From Pratylenchus scribneri (taxonomy: Eukaryota > Nematoda > Chromadorea > Rhabditida > Pratylenchidae): DNA of 64,000 bases. The notes beneath the pieces are model-generated. The model did no database searches, was not told the origin of the DNA, and saw only the letters and a program-made list of their open reading frames with translations. The position numbers and the translations under genes are program-made. Shown piece after piece: positions 35,812-62,128 of this stretch (the first letter of the stretch is position 1; every line of letters begins with the position of its first letter). Where the stretch lies: NCBI GenBank assembly GCA_030063045.1, contig JAQSEB010000124.1, positions 434,001 through 498,000 of the forward strand. The letters run 5' to 3'.

Positions 35812-37675
35812 ATGGAAAATAAGCAAAAGCCAGCAGAAAGTAAAGGGTCGTCGATTTGCAGTGATTTGGAACAAATGAATTTGGCCGATTTTGGACTGGG
35901 CGAAGTTGAGGCCAAGCAAAATGATGGAACAGCTGGGGAAATGGAAAAGATGAAGGTTAATATTTTAAAAAATAATTTTAAAATAAATTTAATTTTCAGG
36001 CTGAATTGGCAAAACTAATGAAGAAGGAAATGGAGATCATGAAATTGGCCAGCAAATCGGATTCAAATGAGATTTCCAACAAATTAGAAGACAAAATTGA
36101 TCATTTGAAGAAATATGTAAATTTTTATTAATTTTTACTGAAAATTTACTTAAAATGCTAGTCTTGATGAAGCTTTTAGTTTAATTCGAATTGAAATTCA
36201 AAATTAAATAATGATTTTTAATCATCTCGAAAAATTTAAAATTTTAATTAAATCTTAATTATTACAAAAATTTTGATTTAAAAAATTATTTTTCAATGTC
36301 AGCTGAATGATCAATTTCAAAAATTGGCCCAAGAGAATCAGAAGCAGCAAGGGAAAAAAGAAGACAAATCGCTCGAAGGAAAATTGGCAAAATCGGATCA
36401 GGCAATGGGAAAATTGAAGAAAGAAATTGACCGCAAGAATGAAAAATTGGCAGAGAAGGATAAGGAAATTTTTGCATTGGAAGTGGAAATTGTTGGGCTT
36501 AAAAGGGAAATTGGCCAAAATGATCAAAAGATGGAGAAGAAGGCTGAGGAAATTTGTGCACTGAAAGAAGAAATTGGCCAAAAGGACCAAAAATTGGCTG
36601 ATCAGGAAGCAAAAATCCACGGAATGGAAAATGAAATTGCCGAATTGAACCAAAAGAAGGCAGTTGATCAACAATCACCTATTGGGAAGGCGAAGATTGA
36701 TGCAGTCAAAACATGGGCAGAGGTTAATCAATATAAAATTTTAAATCAAAATTTTTATTAGTTTTTCTTATAGTACAAAATTGACAATAAAATGTAATGA
36801 AACAAAAATTTACAAAAAGAAAAGCCAAAGCCATTCTCTATTAGAAGCTTTTGTCCATTTATCTAGAATTGTGCAAAATAATTTTCAAAAATTAGTAATT
36901 TTAAAATTTCATTTTATTTATTTTTTGAATCTTTATCCATATAAAATATTTATAAATTGCATTGTTCCATACAAATTTTTTATCAAAAAATTTTATAACC
37001 AAATTTAAACTTTTCATTTAAGCTTCCACCTCCACCCGTCAGACCAACAAAAGCACCAAATTCTGCTGAGGATGCCAACAAAACTGAATTGAAGAAGGCA
37101 TATCCAAAGTAAGTTTTTGGAAGAAAAATAAAATTTTTAAATATTATTTTTTCAGTGTGTTTGGATATTGTGCCAGTTGTGAGCAAGGATTTTTGTGAGT
37201 TAAAATTAAAATTACCAAATTTTAAATGCCACATGCGAGAATTTAATTTTTTACAAATTTATTATTATTTATTGAAAAAGATAAAATATTGATGGATATT
37301 AGCAATTAGAATAAAAAAATATTATGGAAAATCAAAAACAAATTACATATAAAATATATAAAATTTTTAATTTAACACTTTAAATTCTGATTTGTATTTA
37401 AAAAAATACTATTTATCCACAGGCAAACTGATTGGGCCCGTCAAGTTGGTGATCTTCAATATCATGTTGGTTGCTTCAAATGCGAGCGTGCTTCTTGCCG
37501 TCATCAATCGATCGATTTCGATGAATTTTTCCTGCTGGTTGGTCAGCGTAGAAATCATGCACTTGGCAGGATGGTTCCCCGAATTCTTTGCAAAAAGCAC
37601 TGCAGTTCTTTTGTTTTATCAACAAAAGTGCCAATTACTGATGGTGATAAAATTATTTTTTATTCAAATTATTAG
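35812..37675 (+). CDS. Family C gene C1: coiled-coil protein with altered LIM domain
   Basis: Exons are 35812-35955, 36000-36116, 36303-36722, 37023-37108, 37156-37194 and 37423-37675, giving 353 codons. The N-terminal module is MENKQKPAESKGSSICSDLE with acidic DFGLGEVEAK. Exons 2-3 are long heptad-rich coiled coil (repeats of EEIGQKDQKLA). A Pro linker (LPPPPVRPTKAPNS) leads to a LIM domain split between YCASCEQGF and LQTDWARQVGDLQYHVGCFK. In the second finger the expected C-x2-C is C-x4-C (CERASC), and the following RRQLL-GEEF block is scrambled, so zinc binding there is doubtful. The closest LIM match I know is the second LIM of Lhx6/8/Awh. The 3' end is uncertain; a short exon at 37691 resembles the C2 last exon. 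No signal peptide; nuclear or cytoplasmic location is inferred. Confidence 0.7.
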
Positions 37676-39587
37676 TTTTTTAATTTTTAGCTCGCCAAAT
37701 TCGTATTGGTAAATACTATGCTAAATGAAGAGAAGAATGCTATATGGATATGGATGAAGATTGAAGGGCAAATTATATTTGTTTGGTGCCCAAATTTAAA
37801 ATATACATGGAACATTTTCACTTTTACACTTTGATTGAATTATCAATACATATTTGCTATAAATTCTTCAAATATTTTGATCTTTCTTTCTGGACAAAGA
37901 TTTACCTTTTTTTTTAAATATATTTAATTTTAATTAATCCATTTTCATTTTGGATAATTTAACGGTACTTGTATACTTTGTATCCGCCAGAACCCTTAAA
38001 AAATTTCGAAATTTTTTTCTACAAAATTATATACCAATCGACTCGTCTTGGCGAGCTGGTTATGAAAATGTTATTAGTTTCGCATAAAACCCAGAAATAA
38101 AAAAGTTATGACCTCAAAGAAATCGAAAAAGGTGCTTGGTCCCCCCTATGGGTCTGAGCTCGAAAAATTTTTTAACATTTTTTCGGTCGAATTATATCTC
38201 TGTCGACGCGTCTCGATGAGAGAAGCTCGAATCTGCCATCGATTTCGCATATAACATAAAAATAAAAAAGTTACGGCCATTTTAGTTTCGCTGGATGTGT
38301 TGGAACTGCGCAGACTTGCGCGACTGTAACTTTTTTATTTTTGTGTTTTATGCGAAACCGATAAGAGATTCGCATTCTGCTAGTCGAGACGCGTCGAATG
38401 AGCTATAAATTGACTAAAAAAATTTTCAAAAAATTTTTCGAGTTCAGACCCATAGGGGGGACCAAGTACTTTTTCAATTTTCATGAGTTCATAATTTTGC
38501 CAAATGTGCTGATGTTCAAAATTTTAACATTTTCATAACCAGCTCGCCAAGACGAATCGATTGGTATATAATTTTGTAGAGAAAAAATTTCGAAATTTTT
38601 TAAGGGTTCTGGCGGATACAAAGTATACAAGTACCAATTTAACTACCTAATTTAATTTTTCGAACCGGCCTGATCCAACAATTTAAACAATGCAATGCAA
38701 TTCGATCAAAAAATGTACAAAAAAATTCAAAGGCATTAATAAATTAAATACCCAATTAAAGAAAAGTTGAAAATAAATTTCAGCTCTTTTCTTTCAAAGT
38801 TAATTTGGTCGCTAGCCAATTTTTTCCATCCAGGAAAACATATTGAAATTAGGCAAAATAAGCTGATTGGCCAATATTCAGTGAAGAAAAAATTGATTTT
38901 AAATTAATTTTAACAGCTAGCCTTCTTTCCTTTTTCTTTTTATGAGTGGAAACTGCAAACGAGTTTTGCTGAAAAAAAGGCCGGTTTAAGACATTTTATC
39001 CAAACCGATTTTGGCCTATTTACAAGGATTAAACCAAAAACAAATGATGTTTTCGGATTTAGCATGTTTTAGCCCTCATAAAACCATTTAAAACACTAGT
39101 TTTTAAATTATAAATTAGTAAAAACATTGTTTATTGAAATATTTTACGACGTTTTTAATTGAAATTCGGAAATATGATGCTTTTTATGTTAATTAAAAGA
39201 TTTAAAAATGTTTTGAATGAGAGATGAATGATGATTGTGCTGAGGCAGTTGCAGATGAACACAAAAATAGCCTATTCATCCCCATCCGTCATATTGCTGC
39301 TGACCATTGACTAATCGATTTTTTATCACGAACTCAATCCCCAAGCCCCAACTCAATTTCATCATTTTCATATTTCCATTCTCATTCCTAGTATTTTTTT
39401 CCCATTCTACCACTGCCATTCACATTCTCCATTTTTTAAAGTATTTATCGGCCATTAAAAAATAAACCATTAAAGGCATCGATTAGCAACACAACCAAAA
39501 ACATATTATTGAAGCATTTTTAATTTTAGAAAAAGCTAAACATTTGATTATTCTCAACAATCAAGAATAATTATTTTGTCAATTTCA
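37676..39587. promoter_or_regulatory. C1 3' flank, foldback and C2 upstream block
   Basis: The start matches the C2 3' flank (ctaaatgaagagaagaatg, gaagggcaaattatatttg). A large foldback occupies 37964-38635. From 38940 the sequence repeats the upstream block of C1 and C3 (gtttaagacattttatcc, aaacaaatgatgttttcgg, gaaattcggaaatatgatgc, ttttatcacgaactcaatcc). It ends in attttagaaaaagctaaaca before the C2 ATG. Confidence 0.45.
37964..38635. mobile_element. Large foldback element, 672 bp
   Basis: Arms of over 100 bp begin ggtacttgtatactttgtat ccgccagaaccc and end with the complement (gggttctggcgg atacaaagtatacaagtacc). Nested inner arms include ggtccccccta tgggtctgagctcg and cgagttcagaccca tagggggg. 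Related shorter elements with ggtactt/aagtacc ends are at 41771-41968 and 59459-59665. Confidence 0.75.
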
Positions 39588-42232
39588 ATGGAAAATAAGC
39601 AAAAGCCAGCAGAAAGTGAAAGGTCGTCGATTTGCAGTGATTTGGAACAAATGAATTTGGCCGATTTTGCATTGGACGAATTTGAGGCCAAATCGAATGA
39701 TGGAAACGTTGGTGAAATTGAAAAGATTAAGGTGGGTATTTTGAAAAAAGGTTGGCCGACACTTGCGGACCAAACGGTCTGGCGCCGAGGGTGGTAAAGC
39801 TATTGACGAATTGTTTATGGCATATTATAAGGCATAAAATTAACTACAAATTGGCATCAATATAATTGGCCAATGTTGAATATTCAACGAGTTATGGCCA
39901 AAAAAATATCCAAAAACACAATTTTAATTAAACCAACGGTTTTTTGCCCATAACTCGGTGAATACTCAATATTGGTCAATGCTTTTGATGTCATTTTGTA
40001 GCTAATTTTATGCCTTATAATATGCCATAAACAATTCCCTTTACCACCAGCGGCTTCAAACCGTTTCGTCCGCAAGTGTCGGATCCGTAAGTGTCCTAAT
40101 ACGTTTTGAAAAATAGTTTAACTAAATTTAATTTTCAGGCTGAATTGGCGGAATTGAAGAAGGAAATGGAGGCCATGAAATTGGCAAGCAAATCGGATTC
40201 TAATGAGAATCAGTTGGAGAAATATGTAAATTTTTTCATTCTAATTTTCGAATCTCTATTTTAAGTTGGACGAACAATTGATTGACAAATTGCGAAAGAC
40301 TTTGGCAAATGTTGAAAAATTGGTGGAGAATGAGACGAAAATTGGCAATATGGAGATGGAAATTAATGGACTCAAAATGGGAATGGAAAATATGAAGAAA
40401 ATGATGGAGGAAAAGTCAAATGAATCAATGAAGGAAAAGTTGGCAAAAATGGAGGAAGCAATGGCCAAATTGAAAGAAGAAATTGACCGGAAGAATGAAC
40501 AGTTAGCAGAGAAGGATGCGGAAATTTGTGCTCTGAAGAAAGAAATTGGCCAAAAAGACCAGAAATTGGCAGAGAATGACGTGGAAATTTACCGAATTAT
40601 GGGGGAGACGGACGAGGAAATTTATGCAGTGCACAACGAAATTTCTGCTTTGAAAGAAGAAATTGACCAAAAAGATCAGAAATTGGCTGATCAGGAAGCA
40701 AAAATCGTCGCATTGGAAAATCAAATTGCCAAGCAAAAGAAGGCAGTTGATCAACAATCAACTATTGGGAATGCCAAAATTGAACGATTGGTTGGTTAAT
40801 TTTTTACATTAAATTGTTTTAAATTTGCAAAAGCATTAATCCAGATAAAAGCTTAATGGCAATAAAATGGAATAAACAAAAAAATTCACAAAACGGAAGC
40901 CATTTTATATCAAAGATAAAGCTATTGTCCATCATTTTCCAAAAATATTGTAATTTGAAAAATAAATTTCATTTTGCTTATTTTTTGAATCTTTATCCAT
41001 ATAAAATATTTATAATTGTTTTGGCCCATATAAATAACTCAAATTTAATCTTTTCATTTAAGCTTCCACCTCCACCCGTCAGACCAACAAAAGCACCAAA
41101 TTCTGCAGAGGATGCCAACAAAACGGAATTGAAGAAGGCATATCCAAAGTAAGTTTTTGGAAGAAAAATAAAATTTTTAAATATTATTTTTTCAGTGTGT
41201 TTGGATATTGTGCCAGTTGTGAGCAAGGATTTTTGTGAGTTAAAATTTTCCAATTTAATATGCCATTATTTTTTAATGGTTAAATTTCAACTTATTATTT
41301 CCACTAATTGATTCTTCTCAATTATTTTATAAATTTTTATTTATTGAAAATAATTCATGGTAAAAGATAAAATCTTGTTGCTTGATGGATATGGATATCA
41401 GATATCAGCAATTAAAATTAAAAAATATGATGAAAGGTCGAAAAATAAATTAAATATAATATTTTAATTAAATCTCTTCCATAGGCAAACTGATTGGGCC
41501 CGTCAAATTGGCGATCTTCAATATCATGTTGATTGCTTCAAATGCGATCATTGCCGTCGTCAATTGCTCACTGGTGAAGAATTTAGCCAGGATTCAAAAG
41601 TTCAGCGTAAAATTCGCCCACTTGGCAAGATGATTCCTCGAATTCTTTGCAAAAAAGACTACATGGAATTGGTCATCCAAAAGAAGGTAATAAAATGTAC
41701 TATGAATTATAACCAAATTTAATATAATAAAACTAAAAAAAATTATAAACCTTTATAAGAATCGGATTTTGGTACTTGTGGAGTTTATCCCCTTTTTTGT
41801 AAAGTGCTTGGTCCCCCCTATGGTTTGTAATATTTCGGGTTAGGGTTAGTCAGGGTTAGGATGGGATGAGAATCATCTTACGTGTATCCTAAACCCTAAC
41901 CCAACCCTAACACCCAAAGGGGGGACCAAGCACTTTACAAAAAAGGGGATACAAACTCCACAAGTACCCGGATTTTAATTAAGACTATATTTTCCACACA
42001 ATGACCCCAGCCAAAAAAAATATTGGCTCAAATTTTCATTATATTTCAGCTTCCACCGGTTAATGTCATCAATTCTTCCAATGCCAAACCCACAAAAACA
42101 CCAACTGCTACTGAGGATGTCAACAAAACGAAACCGAAGAAGACTTATTCAAAGTGAGGGTGGAAAAAATTAAAAATTTTGATAAATTATTATTTTTTCA
42201 GCTTTTCATATTGGGCGGATGCGGATTTATGA
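39588..42232 (+). CDS. Family C gene C2: coiled-coil protein with LIM domain
   Basis: Exons are 39588-39731, 40139-40225, 40266-40790, 41063-41148, 41196-41234, 41485-41686, 42050-42153 and 42202-42232, giving 406 codons (405 aa) with all phases closing. The N-terminal module is MENKQKPAESERSSICSDLE and [15 protein letters not shown]. Exon 3 is a roughly 175-residue coiled coil. The LIM domain shows C-x2-C (CASC), H-x2-C (YHVDC), C-x2-C (CDHC) and C-x2-D (CKKD). RRQLLTGEEF fits LIM2 of Lhx6/8/Awh. The second finger loop is about 31 residues, longer than usual. A linker exon (LPPVNVINSSNAKPT) then precedes NFSYWADADL-stop, which resembles a decayed start of a second LIM unit. No homeodomain follows. 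Confidence 0.75.
39755..40083. mobile_element. Foldback element in C2 intron 1
   Basis: Arms are ccgacacttgcggaccaaac and gtttcgtccgcaagtgtcgg. Inner complementary halves include gttgaatattcaacgagtta tggcc and gcccataactcggtgaatac. It is related to 17575-18115. Confidence 0.65.
41771..41968. mobile_element. Foldback element in C2 intron 6
   Basis: Arms are ggtacttgtggagtttatcc cc and the complement ggggatacaaactccacaag tacc. Inner parts are gtgcttggtccccccta and the complement ggggaccaagcac. Confidence 0.65.
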
Positions 42233-43431
42233 TGATGCTGATTATTACTAAATGAAGAGAAGAATGAATGATATATGAAAGAAGATTGAAGGGCAAATTA
42301 TATTTGTTTGGTGCCCTAATTTAAAATATACATGGAACATTTTCACTTTTACACTTTGACTGAATTATCAATACATTTTTGCTATAAATTCTTCAGAATA
42401 TTTTGATTTTTCTTTCTGCTGGATAAATGATAAAAGATTTACCTTCATTCAAATATATTTAATTTTAAGTAATCCATTTTCATTTTGGATAATTAACTAA
42501 TTAAATTTTTCGAACTGTCATGATTTAAATTTAAACAATGCAATTCAATCAAAAAATATAAAAAAAAAAATTCTATTGAATAATCAAAATCAAAAAGCAT
42601 TAATAAATTAAATACCAACTAAAGATGGTCGCTGGCTAATTTTTTCCAATAATTCTGGAAGACATATTTAGGTAAATGAGCTTATTGGCCAATATTCAGT
42701 GAAGAAAAAATTTTAAATTGATTTTAAATTAATTATGTTCACAACTAGCCTTTTTTCCGTTATATTTTTATGAGTGCAAACTGCAAATGGTTTTGCTGAA
42801 AAAAGCCGTTTAAGAAATTTTATCCAAACCGGGTTTGGGCTATTTACAAGGATTAAACATTAAACTAAAAACAAATGATGTTTCAGATTTAGCTTTTAGC
42901 ATGTTGGATAACCTTTAAAATCATTCAACGCTAGTTTTTAAATGATAAAACTCGTAAAAACATGGTTTGATTGAAATGTTTTAATTGATGTTTTTGATGA
43001 AATTCGGAAATATGCTGCTTTTTATGTTAATTAAAAGATTTAAAAATGTTTTGAATGAGAGATGAATGATGATGATGATGATGATGATTGTGCAGATGAA
43101 CACAAAAATAGCCTATTCATCCTCATCCGCCATACTGCTGCTGGCCATTGACCAATCGATTTTTTTTTATCACGAACTCAATCCCCAACTCCCAACTCAA
43201 TTTCATCATTTTCATATTTCCATTCCCATTCCTAGTATTTTTTTCCTATTCTGCCACTGCCATTCACTCCATTTTTAAAGTATTTATCGGCCATTAAAAA
43301 ATAAACCATTATTAAAGGCATCGATTAGCAACACAACCAAAAACGTATATTATTGAAGCATTTTTAATTTTAGAAAAAGCTAAACATTTTATTATTCTCA
43401 ACAATCAAGAATAATTATTTTGTCAATTACA
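42233..43431. promoter_or_regulatory. C2 3' flank and C3 upstream block
   Basis: The 3' flank matches that of C1. From about 42760 the C-family upstream block recurs (gcaaactgcaaatggttttg, gaaattcggaaatatgctgc, atttccattcccattcctag, ccattaaaaaataaacc). It includes a short atg triplet run near 43064-43086. It ends in attttagaaaaagctaaaca. Confidence 0.45.
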
Positions 43432-45754
43432 ATGGAAAATAAGCAGTCAGGAAAAAGTGAAGGATCGTCGATTTGCAGTGATTTGGAACAAATGAACATG
43501 GCCGATTTTGCATTGGACGAATTTGAGGCCAAGTCGAATAATGGAGCTGGAGAAATTGAAAAGATTAAGGTTATAATATTTTAAGAAAATATAAGAAATT
43601 TAATTTGCAGGCCGAATTGGTAGAAATGAAGAAGGAAATGGAAACCATGAAATTGTCAAGCAAAGCGGATTCTAATGAGATTGGCAGCAAATTGGATGGG
43701 AAAATTGATCGTTTGGAGAAATATGTAAATTTTATTGATTAATTATTTTACTAAAGCCAAAAATATAATCATTGGTGATTTTTATTCTTACTCTAAAAAT
43801 TGGAGAAATTCATCCCAATTTTTTGCGAATTTCATTTTTTTTCAGTTGGATGAAAAAATGATGGCGAATGAGACGAAAATTGGCAATTTGGACATGGAAA
43901 TTGGCCGACTCATAAATGGAATGGAAAATGTGAAGAAGATGATGGAAGAGAAGCCAAATGAATCAATGAAGGAAAAGTTGGCAATAACGGAGGAGGCATT
44001 GGCCAAATTGAAGGAAGAAATTGACCAAAAAGACCACAAATTGGCCGAACATGAAGCAAAAATTGAATCTTTGGAAGAGCAGATTTCTTCGCAGGATAAA
44101 ATTTTGGAAAAGAGAGGAGCAAAAATTTGCACATTGATTGAGGAAATTGGCCAAAAGGATGAAAAATTAGCAGAGAAGGATGAGGAAATTTGTGCAATGA
44201 AAGAGGAAATTGATGGGCTCAAAAAGGAAAATAAGCAACAGTTGGATGAGAAGGAATTAAAAATTTACAAATTGGAATATGAAATTGAACAACAGGATGA
44301 AAAATTAACAAGCAAAATTTGTGAATTGCAAAGGGAAATTGACCAAATTTGGGACGAAAAAAGCGAAGAAATTGGCCAAAAAGACCAGAAATTGGAAGAG
44401 AAGGACGAGGACATTTATTCATTGGAAGAGAAAAATGCAAATTTGAAGGAAAAAATGGAGGAGAAAGAAGCAAAAATCGTCACGTTGGAAAATGAAATTG
44501 CCAAGCTGAAGAAGGTGATGGTGGATCTGCAATCAATTATTGCGAAGTCGAAGATTGATGAGGTCGAATTGATTAGTTAATTTTAATTTTTATATCAAAA
44601 TTTTTGTAAGTTTTGCTTTTTGTAATAGTATATTTGGATAGAGGCTTCAAAAAAGTATAAAATTGACAAAACGAAAACAATTTTATTGGGTCCATACAAA
44701 TCTTTAAATAACCAGAAGCCAGAAAAAATTTTCATTTAAGCTTTCGCCCATCGATGCCACTAATTCTTCCAATGCCAAATCAACAAAAGCACCAACTACT
44801 ACGACTTCTTCAAAGTGAGTGGAATAAAAATTAAAATTTTTTAAATTATTATTTTCTTTTCAGTTTGTATGGATATTGTGCCAGTTGTGAGCAAGCATTT
44901 TTGTGAGTTAAAAATTTTTATGGTCAATTATTAATTATCTTTCATAATTGAATCTGCTTCTTACATACCTTATATGAGAAAAACAATGATTATGATTTTA
45001 AAATTTAAATTATTATTAATTGAAAATAATTTATTGGTAAAATTCTGGAATAAAATGTAAAATTTTACGATTAAAATTAATAAAATACCAAGGAAAATCA
45101 AAATTAAATTAGATATATATTTATAAAATTTTTAAATAAAATTTACTTTAAATTCGAATTGGCCTTTATCTTATTATCCATATCATAGGCAAACTGATTG
45201 GGCCCGCCAAGTCGGTGATCTTCAATATCATCCTGGCTGCTTCAAATGCGATCATTGCCGTCGTCAATTCCTCGCTGGTGAAGAATTTGGCCAGGATTTC
45301 AAAGTTCAGCACAAAAATCGCGATGGCAAGATGGTTCCTCGAATTCTTTGCAAAAAGGACTACATGGAATTGGTTCGGAAGAAGGTAAAACTCGCCCTCT
45401 CCCTTGCAAAATATAAAAGCAAAATATTCCAATTTTTGCTAAAAATAATTTTAAAAAAGCATAAAAATTTTCAAAATTCCATAGGAATTAAAATACAGCC
45501 TAAAGTCTATAATTTATTACCTCAAAATCAAAATTATTAAACAAATTAATTTTGAATGTTAATGTTAAACATGAATATTTTGCACAAATGGTACAAAATA
45601 GATGACAAATTTATGCTTATTTAATATTCCAAATTAATATTTTATATTATTAAATACTTTATTTTAGTCAACTCAAGTGGTCAATGCTGTTAAAGTGAGC
45701 GATCCTGGAAAGAAATATCCTTATGTTGGTTCCGCATGGCAAATTTATGATTGA
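43432..45754 (+). CDS. Family C gene C3: coiled-coil protein with LIM domain
   Basis: Exons are 43432-43569, 43611-43724, 43846-44562, 44741-44814, 44864-44902, 45189-45384 and 45668-45754, giving 455 codons (454 aa). It has the shared N-terminal module (MENKQSGKSEGSSICSDLEQ). Exon 3 is the longest coiled coil of the LIM-bearing members, about 239 residues. The LIM ligands are intact: CASC, YHPGC, CDHC and CKKD. The C-terminal exon is STQVVNAVKVSDPGKKYPYV then a short tail; C6 has the same exon. The donor chosen for exon 3 (after KIDE) keeps phase 0 with the linker; a stop 18 bases later gives a shorter alternative without LIM. A role in protein-protein contact in the nucleus is inferred from the LIM type. 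Confidence 0.74.
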
Positions 45755-47158: not shown

Positions 47159-50100
47159 ATGGAAAATCAGCAGTCAACAGAAAGTGAAGGGTCATTTTGT
47201 AGCGATTTGGAACCCATGAATTTGGCCGATTTTGCATTAGACGAATTTGAAGCCAAGTCGAATGATGGAAACGCCGGGAAAATTGAAAAGATTAAGGTGA
47301 ATATTTCTAAAATAATTTCAAAATAAATAAATTTAATTTTCAGTATGAATTAGCGGAATTGAAGAATGAAATGAAGGCAATGAAATTGACAAGCAAGTCG
47401 GATTCAGATGAAATTTCCGACAATGATATTTTGTTATTGGAGGAAAATGTGGCAAAAATGATTATGGATAACATAAAAATGGAAAGAGAAATTACTGTTT
47501 TTGAAGAGATAAATGAAAATGACGAACGAAAATTGGGCGAGTTAAAGTTTCAAATTGGTGATTATGGAATACGATCTGTGATGGCCGAATTAAGGCAAAT
47601 GGGAGGAGAGAATGATGGAAATGGAAAGGTAATTTAACTCGAAATCTAGCAGCAGGGATATTCGAAATATTCATTAATCTTTGCATGTCCACAGTTGTCA
47701 GTCCCACTAAAATTCAAATTCAAAATCACCAATTTAATAATTATAATTAAAAATTTATTTCTGGATAATTTTTGAGAGCATAATGTAGCGTTTACATTTC
47801 GTTTAGCGCCATTAGTTCCTCCTTTATATTATATCTTAGAATAATTATTTAAGGGTTTTCGATGGTGATTGGTTTTTCCATTTTTTAACAAAAATCAAAT
47901 AAATTTCTTTTTAACATTCTGTAATTCATAATCAGCGACCATGGAACCCTCTAGTACAAAAATTCAACTCAATCCATCCTCAAAACATAAAGAAAAGATA
48001 AAACCATATGAGCCACAGAGCACAGACAGACAAACTCTTCTAAAATTTTATATAAAATAGAAGAGAATTCATTGCGATTTTTTAAAAAAAAATTGACAAT
48101 TGATTTTTATGATAATATTAAATTGCTAAAATTTAATTCCATCATTTACAGAATGTTGATCAAATTATTGAGTCAATGGCTGATGAATATGAGAAGAAGA
48201 TGATTGATGAGGTTAAAAAGCAAATTGATGAAATTGAGAAGAAACTCAGTGAAAACCGAAATAAAATCACAGAAAATTGTGCGAAGATTAATGAAAATAA
48301 GAAGAAAATTGATCAGCAAAATGAGCAAATCCTCAATTTTAAATTGGAGAAGAATAAAGAATGGGAGAATGCACTAATGGAGATGGAAGACTATTCGCTT
48401 TATCCGTCATATTCGATGAGAAAAGAGCTAAAAGAGAAGACAGGAAATGAATTGAGCGAAGAACAAATCATAATTTGGCTGAAAAATTCAGAGGTAAATA
48501 GTAGAGAGCGGATCCGTCCCATGCACGGACTGTTTTTCTATGAAGTTTCCAAAAAGGCACTATTAAATTCCGTTTAATCCGTTTTTAGTACGAGGGTCCG
48601 TGCACGGTGCCCGCAAATCAGAGACCCGTTTTTCGACAATTTTTGCCTTTTTTTAAAATTAATTTATGGATATTTTTATTCAAAGTTCGAATCCAACCAA
48701 GGGCATATAAATTTTTACTTTGATATAAATCGGGGAAAGGTTTTCTGAGCAAAATTAATTATTCAATATGACTTTTTTTAATGAAATAAATGAATAATAT
48801 TAATTTTCATTTTTTTACATGAAGAAAAAAAAACGGGTACATGCAGTGTTTTAGCCGTTTTTTTTGGAAAATTGGCACGGCAAAATGATACAGAATAATT
48901 TAAAAACCGGTTTCCGTGCACTGAAATTATGAAAAACCGCTCTCTAATATATTTAACCTAAAATGGAAAAATGATGATGAAATTAATAATTTTAGAAGAA
49001 GTATCGGGATTATCAACGAAAAAAAGATGCCATCGCTGTGCTAACATCCACTTTTGAACAAAACAAATTGTTGGAGGAAAAGTTGGAAGAAAAGGAGAAG
49101 GAAAATGGCAAATTGAAAGATGAAATCGCCGATATGGAGAAAAAGCATTCAATTTTTGAAAAGCAAATATTAATGCTGGAAACAATGGTTCAGAAAATGG
49201 AAGAAATTGGAATGGCCAAGATGGAAAAGGAAAATAGTGAGAATATGGAAAAAGTAATGGTGAAAAAATGCGAGGAACTGTTGAATGATGGAAATGGGAA
49301 TCATAAAGGCATTGGATGCGAAACAATGGTTAAAAATATTTGTCAAGCAATTAATATGATAATATTAATAGAATATCAATAAAATAGGCTGAAAACAAAA
49401 TTATTAAATTTATTTTTTAGCGAATTTTTTAAAAATAATTTTTAAAAATATAAAATGATACTAATGAAATTAATTATATATAATTTTATTCTAGGAAAAA
49501 ACTCCACAAAAACGTGAGAACAAGGTGTGTAGCAATTGCAATGCGACAATCACAATCCTATGGCGACAAGATGTGAATGGCGGATTCCTTTGCAAGTTGG
49601 AATAATAATATTAAAAAAAATTTATATTTGTGCAACTTTAAATTTAATTAATTTTCCTTAAAATTTTTAATTTTTTAACATTATTTTTTTCAAAATGGTC
49701 TGCATTATATATTATTTTTATGGATTTTTTTTTACAATTTTTATTAAAATATTATCCAACAATTTTTCAAATAATACATATTTATAGCAATGACTAAAGA
49801 AAATCCGAGTTTATTTTTTTGAAAGTAAATTAATAGAAAAAATAAAATTTTTTTAAAAATAATTTTAGTCAACCTTCAACTTAAGATTTTTTATAATTCG
49901 CATGTTTTAAATTGACATAAAAATATTCTATATATATAATGATTTATTCTAATAAATCTTTTTAAATTTTATTTTATTTTTTTGGTCGGATTGATTTATG
50001 ATTAATTGAAATATTTGGGAAAAAATAATAATATTTTTTTCCATTTATTAATTGAAAAAAAATTTTATGTGTTGCAAATTTTTAATTTTGTTTTTATAGT

Positions 50101-50307
50101 GCCTGTGGACTCTATTATCGAATGCATGGAATTTCTCGGCCATTAACAAAGAACAAAGAAGACCATTCAGGCAATGAGAATTTTTATAATCAGGAAAAGT
50201 TGCGAAAATTGCAAGAAATGGAAAAAATTATACTCGCAGTGAACAACAATAATTCCAATTCCAACTCACAGGTAAATTTACATATCCAGAATGGAAATAT
50301 GGAATGA
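47159..50307 (+). CDS. Family C gene C4: coiled coil, homeodomain remnant and GATA zinc finger
   Basis: Exons are 47159-47296, 47344-47628, 48152-48493, 48996-49328, 49495-49595 and 50100-50307, giving 469 codons (468 aa), phases consistent. The shared N-terminal module ([20 protein letters not shown]) is followed by coiled coils. The end of exon 3 resembles homeodomain helices 2-3: [20 protein letters not shown] then EQIIIWLKNSE. Trp48 and Asn51 are kept, but Phe49 and Arg53 are changed, so DNA binding by it is doubtful. Exons 5-6 form a GATA-type finger, CSNC-x17-CNAC (TILWRQDVNGGFLCNACGLY), then YRMHGISRPLTKNK, the usual basic tail. The finger is split by a phase-2 intron between LC and NACG. 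This is probably a DNA-binding protein. Confidence 0.78.
48501..48948. mobile_element. TIR element in C4 intron 3
   Basis: The ends tagagagcggatccgt and aaaaaccgctctcta are inverted, flanked by TA-like bases. Internal inverted pairs include gtgcacgg / ccgtgcac and gggtacatgcagtg near an aaaaaacgg run. Confidence 0.55.
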
Positions 50308-51772: not shown

Positions 51773-54700
51773 ATGGAAAATCAGCAGTCATCAGAAAGCG
51801 ATGGATCGTTTTGTAGCGATTTGGAATTGGGACAATTGAATTTGGCCGATTTTGCATTGGACGAATTTGAAGCCAAGTCGAATGATGGAACCGTTGAAGA
51901 AATTGAAATGGTTAAGGAGAATATTTTTAAATAAATAATTTAAAATAAATTTAATTTTCAGGATAATCAGAAGGAAACCCAAATACCGCTGGAGGAGAAG
52001 GAGAAGCCTTTTTTGGAAAAGAATATGAATGAAGGAATTGGAGTTGAGAATATGGGAAAATTTGGGAAAAAGGAAGAAGCTGGACTGACCAATGAAATGG
52101 CCGAATTGAAAGGGCAAAATGAAGAAAATAACAATATTTTGTTATTGGAAGAAAATGTGGCAAAATTGGTCAAAGAAAATGAGAAAATGCAAAATGAAAT
52201 TGAAGTTTTGGAAGGGAAAATTAGCTGCAAATATAAAACCTGTATATTCCGCAAGTTGAACTCATATGAAGTAAGAAACGAAATGACTGGAATGAAGCAA
52301 AAGAATGAATATTCAAAGGTTGGTTTTCCTCAAATTTTATGGAATAGATTATTATTTTGTTTAAAATAATCACAAAAGCAGTGAAAAAAAATCAAAAAAT
52401 GAACGAATAAAATTAAAAATTTTCATATTTTAATTCATTTTTTCAAATATATTAAAGAAATAATTTCTAATTAACTTCCCCCATCGATACTTGGTGGTTT
52501 TTGCATCCGACATTTGCAAATTTAATCACCTACTGTATAATCTCTTTTAATTCCGCAATGGAAATTATTTTTCAACCCCTCAAAAATAGGGAAAATTAGG
52601 CGAAATATTTGAACAAATTAATAAGTCTATTCTGCCTGTAGCTATTGGTCAGAGGGTGGGAAATTAAAACAGGTTTTACGGTATATCTTCAACTAAAACT
52701 AGGGTACCGAACCGAAGAGATTTTTGCACCAAAATAGAAAATGAGTCTCAAAAGCCGCAAAAAACGAGAAATAAAACCCAAATGGTTTTTTTTTGATTTT
52801 GCCCTTTAACATTAATTATAAATTGGCATTTTGCTTTAAAAAAAATTATCTTAATTTAATCAATCTTAATTCACTTTCATTACAGCAAATTGATAGAATG
52901 TTTAAATTGGTGGATGATGAAAATCAGAAAATAATTGAAGAAAATCAGAAGATAGTTAATGAAGACCAGATGTTTCGGAAAATAATTGATGAAAATTTGG
53001 CCATGATTGCTGAAAATCAGAAAAAGATTGATCAACAAAATGAGCAAATTCTCAATTATAAATTGAAGAAAAATAAATCATTGGAGGAAATGTTGGAGCT
53101 GAAATTCAATCCATGTCAATATGTGGCAAAATCGACGGTAAAGGAGCTAAAAGAGAAGACAGGAAATGTGTTGAGCGAAGAACAAATTGAAATGTGGTTC
53201 CAAAATCGTCGATTGTTGCAGGCAAAACAGAATGTATTATTTTTGAAAATTTTTTAAAATTTTAATTTCCCTTTAACCCATTCATTTTTATAGTTTGGCC
53301 AACGACAAGAACAGCAGCAAATGTCCCAGATTGATACATTTCAGCCAAATTCAATTCAAAATTTGCCACAAATGCCAATGAATGGGCCCAATTTCTTGCC
53401 AAATCCAGGTAGAGGATATTCATTGCCAACACTGCCAGGTTCCGTCATTCCTCCTGCACCAATTCCTCCATATATGGTTGGCAATGTTCCAGCAAATAAC
53501 ATTCAAAAGGTACATAATTTCAATCGCTTTTATTTTACTCCAGTATGAGAATTTTTGAAGAATTATATGCTAATGATTACGCAATAAATAAAAATTAGAA
53601 ATTAACAAAAGTTGATTTTTATATTTAAAATATAATCAAAATATAATTATCTAATAAAATGATTCATCTTTCAATCGCACATTTATTATGGAATATAATA
53701 TGGATTCATAAAAACATTTCCAGGTAAATTTACCCAATCCAAATGGCATTTCAGTGGCCTTACCACATCCTCTCGTTGGACCGCCTCTTTCTTTCGGCCA
53801 ACAGATGATGCCGATGCCGAATACAACTCAAATGGTTCGTCCAATATCCTCTCATCCCTCATATAACACATTCATTTATAATAACTAATTCAAAAAATTT
53901 TAGGTAAATGTTCCAGGCCCTAATGGCAACCCATTGGCCCATTCGCAACAACCGATACCACCTTATCCGGGAAGAATTGCACCGCCTCAATTAGCCAGCC
54001 AACAACAAATAATGCTGAATATAACGACATATTTACCGCATTCATTGCAGCCTTATCATGGAAGTGGGCCACCTCCTTCATTCGTCCCACAAATGCCGAA
54101 TATGGTTCAAATGGTTAGTCAAATATCAATGATATTTATTTACAAATTATGAATTAAAAACATTACCCTTTCAGGAAAATCTGCTTGGTCCTAATTCGAA
54201 TGGTTTCACAACAGTCCCATTAAGCCATTTGCAACAAACGATGACACCTCCTAATGGAATTTTGCCGCCTCCTTCCATCGGCCAACAAATAATGCCGAAC
54301 GCAACTCAAATGGTTTGTCAGATATTCGAAATTTATTTTGAATTACTATTTCCAGGCAAATATGCCCAATCCAAATGGCATCCCATTCCCATTTGCTCAA
54401 TTTCCACCCTCATCATTGCCATTGCAACCTCCTCCTGCTGGAATTGTGCCTGCTCTTTCTTTTGGTCAACAGCAGATGGCGCCGAACATGATGACCAATA
54501 ACAATTCGAACAATGCCGAAAATGAGGGAAAATCGACAGAAAATTCGGTGCAAATAAAACCGAAAAAGGTGACCGAAAATACAAAAAAGGAAGAAACTAA
54601 GAGCCAAGAGAAACAATTGCCGGAAAAGGAGAAAGAAATTGAAGGAATGGAACAACAACAAAACAAAAAGGTGATATTTTTAAAAGAATGCGCGAATAAT

Positions 54701-57533
54701 TAGAAAAATTTTTTCACAGCACGAACAGAAGGAGGTAATCGAGGATGAATCCATAAAATTTGTGCAGGAAAATCAGCAAAAGGCGAAGGATGAAATCGCA
54801 AAATGGGCCAAGGATTATCAAAAGGAAAACCAAGAGAAGGGGAAACAGAAATTGGAGGAGGAAATCACAGTCCCAGAGCCGAAAGAAAAATTAGAAGTGG
54901 AAAATGAGCAAATTCAAAATGAGGAAAAGCTTCATGAGGATGAAGAAATTGAAGAGGAAACTAAAAATGAGAAGGAGGAAAATGCCAGACTGGAAGAAGA
55001 AATAGCCGAAATAAAGCAACACTCAGCTGATGGTAAAATTCAATTGAAATAAATTTGAATTAATAAATGATGATTAATTTAAGATGATTGGCCGTCGCAA
55101 TCATTTCGAGACCACGTCATTTACAGATTGTAAGATTAAAATCGTTTTTTAAATAAATCTGAAATTCCAGAGAAACTGAATTGGCCAGGAATCAACAAAG
55201 TGAATGGAATCCGGTTTATCAAATCAGAAATAATTAAATTAAAAGCAAATCTATACAGGTTCCTGGTGATGCTCGACAAGTTGAGGAATATGTTTTCCAA
55301 AAAAGTGGAAGCAAAGATGTATATATGCGAACAATTGTAAAGGTTATAAAAATTATTTAATAAATTTATGTCAGATTAGCGCTTTTATATTTATGTTCAT
55401 TTTTATTTCTCAGAAAAAGGCTATGATTAGCTAGGTTCCAATCTGGGTGCCTTAGACTTGGGGTTAGGTTGGCTAGGTTTTATAAAGAAGATAAAAAAAA
55501 ATCAAAAATTTTTCTACCCGGAGAGGGGACATTTACTTTTGAATAATTTATGTGTACCTCGGATTCGAATCCGCTAATAGGGAATATATATATTTTTTTC
55601 CTTTGGTAACCACTTTTATTCATTTTTTTACATCCTACTTTTAATAGAGTGTATTCAAATGAACGCGCTAGTGTTACCTGAAATTTATTAAAATTTTAAG
55701 GTTATCAATGCGATCGATTACAGTTCAAAAAGCAATGCAATGCCACCACTGTTATCCCAACAAAGTCATCAATCTTCAAATGATAATTCAAATTCCTCTC
55801 AATCAGCTCAAAATGAGGAAAAGCTTCATAAGAATGAAGAAATTAATTACGTAGGAAAAAATGAGAAGATTAAAGAGGAAAAAGAGATGGCAGAAATGAA
55901 ACAGCAAAAAGAAGAAAATAACGACATTTTATTATTGGAGGAAAATATAACAAAATTGGCTAAGGAAAACAAGAAAATGGAAAATGAGATTCATGTTTTG
56001 GGAGGGAAAATTCACAGTAAAAACCGAAAATTGAACGTGTTGAAATCAGAAATAGAAGAAATGCGAAAGGACGAGATAACCGAATTGAAACAAGGACAAC
56101 AAGAGGAGAGGGATGGAATAGGAAATACTCCGGTTAGTTTATGCTTAAAATTGAGAGCAAAAATTAAAGGGAATAAATGTAAATATTAGATTAATATAAG
56201 ATTAAAAATAGTAAAAGCGTGAATACAATTTTGACAATAATTTACTCATCATCGTCCTTTTATTCATTATTCGAAAATGAATTATATGGTTATTTTCGTT
56301 TAAAAATTTTTTAATACACTGATTTTGGAAAGCTTCTATCACAATATTAATTATTCGAAATATTTGTACAAAAACATAAATTAAATGAAAAAGTAATTTT
56401 TATAACACAGAATGTTGATCAAGAAAATCAAAAGAAGATAATTGAAGAGCTTCAAAAACAGATCGATGAAATTCAGAGGAAGATTGAAGAAATTCAAAAG
56501 AAAATTAATGAAATTCATAAGAAAATTGTTGCGAATCAGAAGAAAATTGACCAACAAAATGAACAAATTATCAATTCTAAACTGATGAAAAATAAATCAT
56601 GGGAGAACATTTTGAAGGGGATATTCACTACTCAATGCCAATATTTTGCAAGGCCATCTATAGAGGAGCTAAAAGAAAGGACAGGAATTGAATTGAGTGT
56701 GGAACAAATCGAAATGTGGTTCCAAAATCAGCGATTGCTGCAGATAAAAATATTGGTATTCTATTAAAATTAATGGTGAATTTATTATAATCATTTATTT
56801 ACTTAAGCGCAAGCAAGAACAGAATCGTCAAAAGCAGGCGCATGATAAGAATATAAAAGATGCCCTCATCTACCTAACATCCACTGTGGAGGGAAAAAAA
56901 TTGCTGGAGGAAAAGTTGAATGAAAATAAGAAAGAAATGGATAAAATTGGAAATGAAATTGTGGAAATCAATTTGATTAAGGATGAACGAATATTGGTTT
57001 TGGAATCAAAAATTCTAAAACTTGAAAGTGAATTGGAAGAAATGAAGCAGAAGAATGATAAACTGGAAGAAGAATTGATGAAAGCGCAAATAGAGTAAGC
57101 GAAGTCAAAAATTATATTACATTATTTTCTATTAATGGTAGAATGTAATTTGCATATACGAATTTTGAGCATCAAATCAATTTTTCAAATGAATTAATTT
57201 ACCAAATTTGGCCATTGAATACACATTAGACTGTTAGGAATTGATTAGAAAAAGAATTAATAACTTGATTTGATTGATAATTGACAAAAATTATGACCAA
57301 AAAGTAGCAAATAGAACAAAATCAGTCTGATTTTGTTTTTTGGCCATAAATTTCTGATCTATAATATTTTTGATAAATTATTTTGTTATCAATGTATTTG
57401 AGATTAATCAAATTTTTACAAATTTTTTAATAATAGTAATAGCTTGAAAAATTGATATGCACAAAATTTGTCATATAAAATTCAAGGATAAACCATATTT
57501 TTTATTTTCAGAAGTATCAATGGTGAATTCTAA
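51773..57533 (+). CDS. Family C gene C5: coiled-coil protein with two homeodomain remnants and a MED15-type KIX domain
   Basis: Sixteen exons: 51773-51910, 51962-52318, 52886-53233, 53294-53509, 53724-53834, 53904-54113, 54175-54312, 54356-54670, 54720-55032, 55084-55129, 55171-55213, 55259-55342, 55701-56132, 56411-56755, 56808-57094, 57512-57533. They sum to 1135 codons with every phase closing. The shared N-terminal module ([20 protein letters not shown]) leads to a coiled coil and homeodomain remnant 1 ([17 protein letters not shown]). Exons 4-8 are Pro/Gln/Met-rich ([14 protein letters not shown]). Exons 10-13 encode [70 protein letters not shown], closely matching the KIX domain of MED15/MDT-15, which binds activators in Mediator. 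A second coiled coil and homeodomain remnant 2 ([10 protein letters not shown]) follow. A transcription-related role is inferred. It could be two genes, but phases favour one. Confidence 0.72.
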
Positions 57534-58456
57534 ATGAAATGAGAAAGGAAGGAAAATATGAGGATGGTAAATTTGAGGGCAATTTGTTTGATGTTTTTTA
57601 ATTTATATGAAATTCGTAATTTGATTGTTTTAATTATCAATATTCATCAAGACACAATTTTTTATTGATTTAATTTTCTATCATTTAAAGTATAACTTTT
57701 GTTCTACAATTCAGTAATTTATAATTTATACAATAATTTTCTTCACCTTATTTTTTCAATTTTATTATTTCATTTTTTAAAAATACGTTCGAATAAATGA
57801 TAAAGATAATTTCCTCCATAAACCAATAATTCTTAAAATTCAAATCAAAGGCCTTCGATATTTTGATGAATTTTCTTGTTTATTATAAAAAATTCAAAAT
57901 TTCATGGAATTTCATAAAAATTTATTCGAAATTTTCCTACGAGAACAAATCCACTCACAAACTCAAAATCAGATTAGCCATTTTTACTGATTAAAAATGC
58001 CAATTTTTGGATGAGAATTTTTTTTTACCAAACTAACATTTTTTAAATTATATTTTCTCTTATTTGTATGCGTTTTATAATTTATTTATGATGATTTAGA
58101 TTTTATCCGGTTTAAAAATTAAGAAAATTAAATGAATTGTTTAAACAAAATGAGTGTTTATTTTGATTATAAATTAAATAGTAATTATTAAATTGATTAG
58201 AATTAAAAAACATCAAAAGAAATGATTAAATTGTTTAATGAAAATTAAAGACGCATAAATTTAAGTGAATTGTTAGAAGAAAATATTGTGAAATGCCATT
58301 TAAAATGTTGATTTTATAATAAATTAATAATTATTAAACCACCCCATTATTAGCCAAATGGAGGTTTCCAAATACAATCGAAATTTAGGGCATCAAACAA
58401 ATTTTCAATTCCGTTATCCCGCGCATATTCTTCTCCTCTTCTTGTCCTCCTTCTCA
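57534..58456. other. Convergent spacer between C5 and C6
   Basis: Contains the 3' flanks of C5 (plus) and C6 (minus). The sequence is AT-rich and I see no gene or clear repeat. Confidence 0.4.
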
Positions 58457-61400
58457 TCAATCAATTTGCCATTTGCAGCCATAGAAAGCATTCTTGGTCC
58501 AGGTATTGCTCACTTTTGTAGCATTGACCGATTGAGTTGACTAAAAATGAATTCTTTTTAATTCTAAAAGTAAAAATTTACGTTCATCGAATTAGAAATT
58601 TTGTGGAGCTAATTAGGAGTATTAATTAACTATGAATTTGTCCTCAATTTAGTCCAATTTATGTCTGTATTTCTAACATGAATATGGCTTATATTTATAA
58701 GTGTTATATTTTTAAAAATAGATAAATTTTGATTAAAATCAGGTTATATTGAAATATACCATATAAAATTAAGCAAGACATTTTTTTGAATTTTTTAAAA
58801 TTTTAATGGACTTAAATTTTAGAATTTCTATTATTTTTTTAATATTTAATTTTCTAGAAATTTTTAATAAAATTATAAAATTTTTAATTAATAGTCTTTT
58901 ATATTGTAAATTCCTATAACTCACAATAATAATAAATAAATTTTATTATCAGTTAAACCTAATTCTGCTAAATTAAATTTAATAATTTTTTTTTTGCATT
59001 TTGATATAATTGATGGATGGTCCATTTTATTACCTTCTTTTGGATGACCAATTCCATATAATCTTTTTTGCAGAGAATTCGGGGAACCATTTTGTCAAGT
59101 ACGCGATTTTTACGCTGAACTTTTGAATCCTGGCTGAATTCTTCGCCAGCAGTGAGCAATTGACGACGGCAATGGTCGCATTCGAAGCATCCAACATGAT
59201 ATTGAAGATCGCCAATTTGACGGGCCCAATCAGTTTGTCTGAGAAAAGTATTTTTCAAAGACGAATTAAAAATAAAAAATTAATAGAGGAAAAGTGTTTC
59301 ATACTAAATTTTTAAATATTTGGTTCAATTTTTATTTTTTTTGATTACTTATCATACCTAAAATTTATAGTGAATTTTTTTCAATAAATTATAATTTAGC
59401 TTTTCTTATTTTTTTTTAATAATTTCTTTTTCCTGAAACTAAAAATAAAACAAATTAAGGTACTTTTCCGTTATCTGTGCGGAGATTACGAAAAAGAAGG
59501 AAAGGTTTCCTCTTAAGGTGATTAAGGATATTAGGGTTAGGGATATGTGAAATGATAACCTATCCCCTATGGACCCTAACCCTATACCGGATGACCCATG
59601 GGGATCACCGATACCTTTCCCCAGTTGACCTAAAAAAATCTCCGCACAGATAACGGAAAAGTACCCAAATTAATTAGTGCAAAATAATAATATAAATTGA
59701 TTATCAAAAATTAAATTTTGGCATTCTAAAATATTAAATTTAACTCACAAAAATCCTTGCTCACAGCCGGCACAATATCCAAACACACTGAAAAAATAAT
59801 ATTTAATAATTTTAATTTTTTTTGTGCACAAACTCACTTTGAATAAGCCTTCTTCTGTTCCATTTTGTTGACATCCTCAACAGAATTTGGTACTTTTGTT
59901 GATTTGGCATTGGATGAATTGGTCGTATCGGAGGGTGGAAGCTGAAAATATAATCAAAATGTTGGCCAAAAATTTTAATTTAAAATAACCAACCAATTGT
60001 TGGCCATCCCACATTTTCAAATTGGCAAAATCCTTAATATTATTGGATTGTTGATCAACTGCCTTCTTTTCCTTCAATTCGGCAATTTCATCTTCCAATG
60101 CGTCGATTTTTGCTTCTTGTTCTGCCAATTTCACGTCTTTTTGGCCAATTTCTTTTCTTTGTCCATTAATTTCATCTCCCAATGCACAAATTTCCTCATC
60201 CTTTTCTGCCACTTTTTCATCCTTTTGTTCAATTTCCTCTTCCAATTTGGCCATTGCCTCTTCCATTTTTTCCAACTTTTCTTCGAGTGATTCGTCTTCT
60301 TTCTTTTGTTGAGTTTGAAAATGCATTGCCTCATCCCATTTAGCCCTAAAAAGACCATAATTTAATTTCATTTTCTAATTTAATTTACATTCTGGCCAAT
60401 TCATTTTTCTCAATATCGAGCAAAGATTGGAGTTCCTGAAAAAGTAAATAATTTTAAGGGAATAATAATATTTTATACTTAAAGGTTTTGAAAATTGATT
60501 TCCAAAAAACTAAAAATTGTGAAAAATTTTTTGAGGAATTTAAGTTGTATTGTAACCTAAAAATTAAAATTAAAAAAAATTATTTTTAAATGGAGATTCG
60601 AGCCCGAGTCTTTAAAAAATAAAATTATGAATAAAAATAACTTGATGAGAGATGGATTCAAATCCTTGATTATGAACTCAAATGATTTTATAAGAGAAAA
60701 AGAAATAAAATAAAAATACTTAATTTTTTAAAAATTTACAAATTATCAGCAGTTCTAATTTTGTTTGTTTTTTAATTTAATTTATCCAAAAATACCTCTG
60801 GTTTAAGATTTGTTGCGCGTTGAAGAGCGGCCTCAGCAGAGCTCTGATGCTTTTTGGGCATCATCGGAATTGCATGCTTGAACATTCCACTCAATCGTTT
60901 CGACATTTCCTTGTACTTTACCATTTCCATTAGTACTGTTTCATATGGCTGGAAAAAAAATAATTTTATTTAAAGCAAAGCCGATTATAAAATTCATTTT
61001 TTTCCTATATTTTCAAAAGTAAAAATTCTCTTTTAAATTTATAAAAATATATTTCTTTTTTTAAAAAGCTTTTTCGAATTATGATAAGTAAATGGATGAA
61101 TCGAAAAAAATGATACGAATTTATATCTTAAAATTTAATTTGATGAAAATGGATTCTTTCAAAATATTTATTAGTCCCTTTGGATCAAAATATGAGAGAA
61201 AGATAGATTTTAATTCTATTTCCAAATCAATTTTTAGCCAAATTCCGCTAAATAAATTGTAAATTTTCCTCTCTCAAACAATCATTACCTTCAATTGATG
61301 GCCTCCTTCTTTTTGCATTTCTAATTGGCCAATTTCATTTTGCTGTTCCACCTCCTTTATTTCTTCCAACTTTTGCTCATCATCTTTTTCTTCTTTCTTC

Positions 61401-62128
61401 CCTTGCTTCTGATTCTCCAAAGCCAATTTTTTAAAATTGATCATTCATCTGAAAATGAAAATAATTTTTTTTTTATTTTATCGAATTTTTTAATAATTTT
61501 GATATAATTAATGGCTTATAATATACTTTAAAGGAAGAAATTTATGAAAAAATAATTTCCGAAAAATCTAAAAATATTTAATTGTTTCATTTTTTGTATT
61601 TTTTTATAAGAAAAGCGGATAATTTTGTTGAAGCTTTAAGTGAAAAATAGAGTTGAGTCATTTTTGGAAAATAGAAAAGATATCTTCAGTTTTTTTGATA
61701 GTAGGTTATAGGCTAATTGTTGAATTTTTAATTTGAATTTAGAAATTCATCGCGTATAGCATTTATAATTTTCAATAAATAATTTACATATTTCTCCAAA
61801 TGATCAATTTTCTCGCCCAATTTGTTGACAATTTCATCCGAATCCGTTTTACTTGCCAATTTCATGGCCTCAATTTCCTTCTTCAATTCCACCAATTCAG
61901 CCTGAAAATTAATATTTTTATTTTAAAATTATTTTTCAAAATATTCACCTTAATCTCTTCAATTTCCCCAACGGTTCCATCATTCTCGGTAGCCACAAAT
62001 TCACCGAATGCAAAATTTGACTTGGCTTCAAAGTCTTCATCGAGTCCAAAATCGGCCAAATTCAATTGGTCCAAATCGCTGCAAATCGATGATCCTTCAC
62101 TTTTTGCTGGTTGTTGCTTATTTTCCAT
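58457..62128 (-). pseudogene. Family C gene C6 (minus strand): LIM-bearing copy with a frameshift in exon 3
   Basis: Exons in transcription order are 62128-61949, 61901-61788, 61448-61289, 60948-60796, 60435-60389, 60345-59994, 59941-59838, 59787-59749, 59238-59034 and 58540-58457. The N-terminal module is MENKQQPAKSEGSSICSDLD with a slightly longer acidic part. Exon 3 is 160 bases where phase requires a multiple of three. Compared with C1 an extra base in the ttttaaaaaa run creates an immediate TAA; elsewhere phases close. Exons 4-5 (MSKRLSGMFKHAIPMM, ELQSLLDIEKNELA) have no counterpart in C1-C3. LIM ligands are intact: CAGC, YHVGC, CDHC and CKKD. The last exon (STQSVNATKVSNTW) matches C3. 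The lesion lies in a homopolymer, so an assembly error would restore a functional gene. Confidence 0.68.
59459..59665. mobile_element. Foldback element in C6 LIM intron
   Basis: Arms are ggtacttttccgttatctgt gcggaga and tctccgcacagataacggaa aagtacc. The inner halves are aggatattagggttagg and taaccctataccgg-like. Confidence 0.65.

Follow-up and report, generated by a model that had tools for sequence, protein, structure and literature searches.

A nematode gene family whose members share a start exon but carry different, probably captured, modules

How do neighboring genes come to share a beginning and differ in their endings, and what might the resulting proteins do? The question is raised by a 64,000-nucleotide stretch of the genome of the nematode Pratylenchus scribneri (contig C124:434001-498000; hereafter, the window), in which six neighboring genes, C1 to C6, open with copies of the same exon. 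A sequence-only reading of the window had described them as a tandem family of regulators with one N terminus and interchangeable modules, spanning positions 35812 to 62128. Copies of this start exon (MENKQ...SDLEQMNLADF) lie at exactly that span, five on the forward strand and one on the reverse strand (Table 1). Each spliced model is opened by such a copy, has GT/AG edges and stop-free exons, and keeps its phase throughout, and its intron positions coincide with the module edges, as had been proposed. As a description of sequence, the tandem family with a shared start and different regulator-type modules held up, while "regulators" still names a putative role. Contigs are written below as contig C12, contig C42, and so on, and loci fetched from the genome carry L numbers.

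Modules and distribution of the family

We scanned the spliced proteins against Pfam profiles, using cutoffs of 22.9 bits for LIM, 26.8 for GATA, 22.9 for the homeodomain, 24.1 for MED15 KIX, and 32 for TLE_N (scores in Table 1). Hits above cutoff were obtained for all four domains that the earlier reading had named (LIM, GATA, homeodomain, and KIX). Of the four genes said to carry LIM, C2, C3, and C6 passed, whereas C1 fell just short with a degenerate domain. C4 contained the expected homeodomain remnant, which scored below the cutoff, and a GATA finger matching profile positions 1-34 of 36. C5 contained the expected homeodomain pieces, one at profile positions 13-53 of 57 and a second in its downstream part, which was scanned separately, together with a partial MED15 KIX domain (positions 26-70 of 72). 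The KIX match depended on splicing: C5 as first modeled gave no KIX in the Pfam scan, and the domain appeared with the alternative exons of a gene predictor. C6 additionally carried a piece of the Groucho/TLE Q domain (positions 55-107 of 118, below cutoff) that had been overlooked. When the LIM exons were compared with 15 matched solved-structure sequences, ISL1 and the LHX4/ISL2 and LHX3 fusions ranked at the top, LMO2 and LMO4 came next, and actin-binding LIM proteins were at the bottom.

The family extends genome-wide, beyond the window cluster. In the 227 Mb searched (276 contigs), the start exon had 52 matches, which merged into 51 places. At 36 of these, at least one of eight modules (LIM, Groucho/TLE, MED15 KIX, GATA, homeodomain, SLBP, eIF4G MIF4G, and PDZ) followed on the same strand within 8 kb. 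The module sets were LIM (18 places), TLE with LIM (4), homeodomain with GATA (3), homeodomain with KIX (3, whether or not another homeodomain is present), SLBP (5), eIF4G (2), and PDZ (1). For 51 sites placed at random, the number expected by chance to have one of 83 module places so positioned is approximately 0.07, or approximately 0.11 if all 123 module rows are used. Those 83 places comprise all matches for LIM (26), TLE (6), and homeodomain (14) and chosen rows only for GATA (7 of 23), KIX (6 of 12), SLBP (8 of 16), eIF4G (10 of 14), and PDZ (6 of 12), with second exons and weaker genes omitted; 49 lie on the downstream side of a start exon, 48 of them on its strand and 1 on the opposite strand, and 34 are near none.

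Several module sets recur on more than one contig (homeodomain with GATA on three, TLE with LIM on four, and homeodomain with KIX on three), and we read these as haplotype copies. The window order is largely repeated on contigs C42 and C70. The corresponding stretches (C42:691000-721500 and C70:175000-199000) have five start exons each versus six in the window, so that one of C2 and C3 has no counterpart there, and a C6-type copy lies at contig C11:1-8000. We estimate by eye that there are about 15 family loci per haplotype.

The modules had been called typical of transcription factors or Mediator. This was true in the window but not elsewhere, where members with SLBP, eIF4G, PDZ, or transmembrane-like stretches (judged by eye) occur. 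An SLBP RNA-binding domain occurs in loci L069 (65.1 bits) and L064, and a PDZ domain (52.6 bits) in L077. L075 has an eIF4G MIF4G piece (36.6 bits; cutoff, 30.8) in an exon that it shares with L066 at 74% identity; another piece of L066, without that exon, reached only 14.6 bits. In L072, L074, and L080, the start exon is accompanied by a coiled-coil-like part and several hydrophobic stretches that by eye look transmembrane. These three are possibly a membrane branch of the family; L074, the one scanned, had nothing above the Pfam cutoff, nor did ten pieces taken from loci most of which lack a module. At L076 (contig C129:116419), the start exon precedes an apparent LIM tail remnant without a Pfam match and an unrelated long frame, with nothing above cutoff. 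Four SLBP chimeras lie on contig C12 (L064, at C12:1963900-1969500, and the stretch C12:1959319-1969151), three of them spaced about 2.6 kb apart.

Origin of the modules

For most modules, there are matches in other genes of this genome, and copies that lack a listed start exon look parental. Places without the start exon resemble the SLBP module at 92% (three places), the KIX exons at 76 to 81% (two MED15-like places), and the PDZ module at 70 to 72% (three places, with an identical exon split). The nearest matches to the eIF4G module are on contigs C23 and C59 (79 to 84%), with six further ones at 61 to 68%; the eIF4G identity of these is putative. Two Groucho-like exons without the start exon are 46 to 47% like the C6 piece, which at the DNA level matches over 144 bp at 74%, and the parent-like exon scored 52.9 bits for TLE_N. 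Four LIM copies without a listed start exon (contigs C20, C114, C267, and C182) show 52% identity over 62 residues. One of them, L068, is a LIM-homeobox gene (LIM, 34.5 bits; homeodomain, 71 bits), and its LIM exon has by eye an insert in common with the family's, a comparison that makes no claim of shared intron positions. GATA genes elsewhere are at most 56% like the C4 finger, and the nearest homeodomain copies without a start exon are 44 to 52% alike, contig C228 aside; a homeobox-like frame occurs at L086.

Two comparisons bear on the route of capture. The SLBP chimera L069 and its putative parent, L083, form one alignment of 463 bp at 89.8% that spans intron and exon. The match starts approximately at the inferred splice donor of L083, and there is no match to L083 further upstream. 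Likewise, the KIX piece aligns with its putative MED15-like parent over 311 bp at 77.8%, introns included. Because both alignments run through introns, these pieces were transferred as genomic DNA. Exon shuffling at the DNA level, with breakage within an intron, would leave such a pattern, and the SLBP capture looks recent, since the edge of the copied stretch and its intron sequence are still visible. We consider this architecture and origin, a shared start exon joined to modules from other genes by exon shuffling, highly probable.

Inverted-repeat elements resembling MITEs lie at 37964-38635, 39756-40082, 41771-41968, and 59453-59671, in introns or flanks of C1, C2, and C6; three start at or near GGTACTT. 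Such elements are possible recombination substrates for exon capture.

Upstream of the start exon, homology to C2 that is joined to the ATG extends no more than 67 bp in all but one of 16 members; in the exception, L069, it extends 284 bp. L056 and C4 have an additional, separate match to C2, about 1 kb or more away. No shared element edge was seen upstream of the ATG in the 16 members compared with C2, for which the flank was short (330 to 735 bp) where members had been fetched as separate regions. A recent-transposon origin, which we also considered, was weakened by these short shared flanks.

The predictor used for C5 was trained on the C1 to C6 models themselves and is not independent of them. 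It recovered most of their exons, fused neighboring genes, inserted some tiny exons, and left out two exons, the third of C6 and the one with the second homeodomain of C5. C5 is probably a single gene extending to 57098, because the phases fit and no start exon intervenes. At C6 exon 3 (61289-61448), the first acceptor leads to an in-frame stop and a later one keeps the frame. Just past the cluster, a cysteine-rich open frame with a hydrophobic end lies at 63004-63264 on the reverse strand, and by eye a similar string occurs on the other side, near 34139-34411.

Table 1. Positions in the window of the start exons and modules of C1 to C6
Feature	Position	Strand	Evidence
C1 shared start exon	35812..35955	+	model, genome start-exon search
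C1 coiled-coil-like exons	36000-36116, 36303-36722	+	model
C1 LIM exons	37156-37194, 37423-37643	+	Pfam 22.3 bits; second zinc knuckle spacing altered
C2 shared start exon	39588..39731	+	model, genome start-exon search
C2 LIM exons	41196-41234, 41485-41686	+	Pfam 39.5 bits
C3 shared start exon	43432..43569	+	model, genome start-exon search
C3 LIM exons	44864-44902, 45189-45384	+	Pfam 35.7 bits
C4 shared start exon	47159..47296	+	model, genome start-exon search
C4 coiled-coil-like exon with homeodomain remnant	48152..48493	+	Pfam 15.3 bits, below cutoff
C4 GATA finger exons	49495-49595, 50100-50307	+	Pfam 51.3 bits
C5 shared start exon	51773..51910	+	model, genome start-exon search
C5 homeodomain exon	52886..53233	+	Pfam 32.2 bits
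C5 proline/glutamine-rich exons (five)	53294..54670	+	model
C5 MED15 KIX exons	55171-55199, 55259-55342, 55701-56132	+	Pfam 34.8 bits
C5 second homeodomain exon	56411-56755	+	Pfam 26.1 bits
C5 last coiled-coil-like exon	56808-57098	+	model
C6 shared start exon	61949..62128	-	model, genome start-exon search
C6 Groucho/TLE Q-domain exons	60948-60796, 60435-60389	-	Pfam 29.4 bits (cutoff 32)
C6 coiled-coil-like exon	59994..60345	-	model
C6 LIM exons	59787-59749, 59238-59034	-	Pfam 36.0 bits

Selection and possible function

We compared window exons with their copies on contig C42 or C70. Some best matches were paralogues rather than haplotype copies, so the totals for C1 and C2 are mixed and were not used. 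The TLE exon had 3 silent and 0 replacement changes against contig C42 and 7 and 2 against contig C70. The C5 homeodomain exon had 8 silent and 5 replacement changes, and the C6 LIM exon had 6 and 0 over 39 codons (Fisher P for these three exons, 0.007 to 0.00003). Gene totals over comparable exons were 0.35 and 0.50 for C4, 0.38 for C5, and 0.28 and 0.30 for C6, and the pooled dN/dS of the start exon was 0.34, calculated from the 36 of 43 rows (35 of 42 places) that were stop free. Several modules and the start exon are under purifying selection.

This constraint bears on the possibility that the family lacks function, i.e., that start-exon segments and nearby mobile elements collect gene pieces that mostly decay (transduplication). 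There is precedent for such capture in Turmoil-1 of Caenorhabditis elegans, which is reported to carry two captured gene pieces (PMC2572040). The inverted-repeat elements around C1, C2, and C6, the stops in some start exons, and the unconstrained divergence of young SLBP copies from one another also fit. However, the TLE, homeodomain, LIM, and start exons are constrained, module sets are retained on three to four contigs, and the homology shared upstream of the ATG is short, without a common element edge in flanks that were short for many members. We regard functionless capture as unlikely.

The start exon is itself informative. It is conserved as a string of 21 residues, and none of the 36 stop-free rows departs from the D of SDL or the F of ADF. 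By inspection it contains no hydrophobic leader of the kind expected in a signal peptide, and because of this, classical secreted effectors are unlikely. Conservation of an acidic, hydrophobic exon could mean that it is a transactivation domain, in chimeric activators or repressors that oligomerize through the coiled coil and use the module to select DNA or cofactors; the nearly complete GATA finger of C4 would suit such proteins. Yet LIM, KIX, TLE, SLBP, eIF4G, and PDZ are not DNA-binding domains, the homeodomains are incomplete, and the start exon, judged by eye, does not match a known nine-residue activation pattern. We think it improbable that the proteins act in this way.

All 36 stop-free rows also contain the spacing hydrophobic-x-hydrophobic-xx-hydrophobic-x-hydrophobic, compared with 4.9% of shuffled sequences. 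This loose pattern is that of the CRM1 export-signal class. If the start exon were such a signal, captured modules could pull nuclear partners into the cytoplasm. The pattern is a lead only, because an acidic activation motif would look alike, as would any amphipathic helix, whatever its role, and partners of SLBP, eIF4G, and PDZ domains are partly cytoplasmic already. Cytoplasmic sequestration is, in our judgment, quite doubtful.

That start exons and modules belong to separate neighboring genes, or are joined only by trans-splicing, is highly improbable. In its favor, nematodes trans-splice leaders, acceptor-like sites lie 48 to 98 bp upstream of the C1 to C6 ATGs, and the joining into single mRNAs is read from sequence, but phases and splice edges agree throughout the models, the SLBP homology of L069 starts near the preceding intron's donor with L083 sequence absent further upstream, and of the 49 module places on the downstream side of a start exon, 48 are on its strand.

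The explanation that we prefer, at a probability of roughly one in two for the whole, is an old multigene family that gains exons and whose proteins compete with or tether other complexes. Members begin with the common start exon, usually followed by a coiled-coil-like exon. Captured pieces would be joined by recombination within introns, a process that the numerous phase-0 edges would aid. The start motif and coiled coil could serve as a common handle that binds one partner or moves the protein, with the captured exon as an address conferring partner specificity. Chimeras containing a portion of Groucho, MED15, a LIM protein, or SLBP would, in the simplest case, enter the parent's complex or compete for it, and the outcome would be a natural dominant-negative or decoy series. 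The partial domains are more in keeping with competitors than with full regulators. At the same time, the LIM, GATA, and SLBP domains are nearly complete, and active proteins may be conceivable. Taken separately from architecture and origin, the function as competitors or tethers of parental regulators' complexes is a tentative proposal.

Several observations count against this explanation. Regarding the build of the family, 15 of the 51 start-exon places lack all eight modules (14 of the 15 were fetched, 13 of them as long regions and L057 as 1.5-kb flanks only), and two of these 15, on contigs C95 and C192, have stops inside the start exon. A C5-type stretch on contig C228 has KIX and homeodomain matches and no listed start exon, which might reflect the end of the contig. 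That the start exon and module exons of each chimera form single mRNAs is inferred from the sequence. Regarding origin, the GATA and homeodomain pieces have no clear parent, and LIM and TLE copies are just 46 to 52% like their putative parents, which makes their source and route less sure. Regarding function, the homeodomain, KIX, and TLE_N modules are partial domains, and PDZ and multi-transmembrane members fit poorly with decoys of gene regulators. Constraint is also uneven. Constraint on the C1 LIM seems relaxed, with ratios of 0.73 and 1.12; ratios above 1 occur in several linker exons (maximum, 1.57), and the contig C42 match to C6 exon 6 has a stop and long gaps. Comparison of the young SLBP copies with one another gave 1.5 silent and 6.5 replacement changes, without constraint, and three of the four on contig C12 share the same start-exon stop; those three represent a recent amplification of a probably broken copy.

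Relation to known systems and significance

The modules resemble parts of familiar proteins in unfamiliar company. The LIM modules are nearest to a LIM-homeobox gene that we take to be of the lim-4/Lhx6-8/Awh type, the worm's own gene to which the LIM exon bears its 52% identity. That type has two LIM domains and a homeodomain, whereas C2, C3, and C6 have one LIM, no homeodomain match, another start exon, and a coiled coil. The C4 finger resembles those of GATA factors and may bind GATA sites. C6 shares its Q-domain piece with Groucho/TLE proteins (unc-37; short relatives include AES/TLE5), but LIM and a coiled coil stand in place of WD40 repeats, which were absent from its Pfam matches. The C5 KIX exons resemble MED15 (mdt-15), except that a homeodomain and proline-rich exons precede the partial domain. 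Drosophila mod(mdg4) and lola also combine one N terminus with many C-terminal modules; each is one alternatively spliced locus, whereas here every gene has its own start-exon copy. Mobile elements that capture genes, such as Pack-MULEs and Turmoil-1, likewise join unrelated host-gene pieces to one common sequence, but the common part here is an exon that is coding and conserved, with little flank in common, and several modules are constrained. Plant NLRs with integrated decoys (PMC4246468) are similarly reported to bear copies of diverse host proteins on one scaffold, and pea aphid cassette effectors (PMC7495047) are similarly reported to have a conserved first coding part and a divergent remainder. 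The present family is from an animal and had no NB-ARC or LRR match in the scanned models, and its start exon differs from the aphid genes' shared signal peptide in having no evident leader.

No described family of this build was found in the open-access literature searched by titles and abstract starts, in agreement with the sequence-only reading. The main text of a Pratylenchus penetrans gland transcriptome paper does not contain the words "coiled," "exon," or "chimeric" (PMC7585316). Searches outside this genome with full C2 (5,700 candidates), C6 residues 1-98 (134), and C4 GATA residues 365-430 (1) returned no match at the thresholds used. These blanks weigh little, because even the GATA finger went unmatched, and the collection seems poor in nematodes. 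The genome also contains 27 exon matches to pectate lyases of Pfam family PF03211, which among nematodes are known only from plant parasites and so identify this worm as one.

A more speculative extension is that the start motif and coiled coil form a scaffold that keeps recruiting copies of the worm's own core gene-expression regulators as baits or competitors against parasites, viruses, or selfish genes that target those regulators, by analogy an animal counterpart of integrated-decoy receptors. We hold this to be very unlikely; if it were true, the modules present would show which regulators are being attacked.

Neither exon shuffling nor gene capture is new as a kind of process. Shuffling is usually read from ancient traces, while here one start exon is joined to at least eight unrelated modules, mostly from gene-control genes. 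Together with the young SLBP capture, this makes it possible to test directly how domains are captured, at what rate, and with what selective value, and the family may turn out to be a natural set of dominant-negative regulators in a crop parasite.

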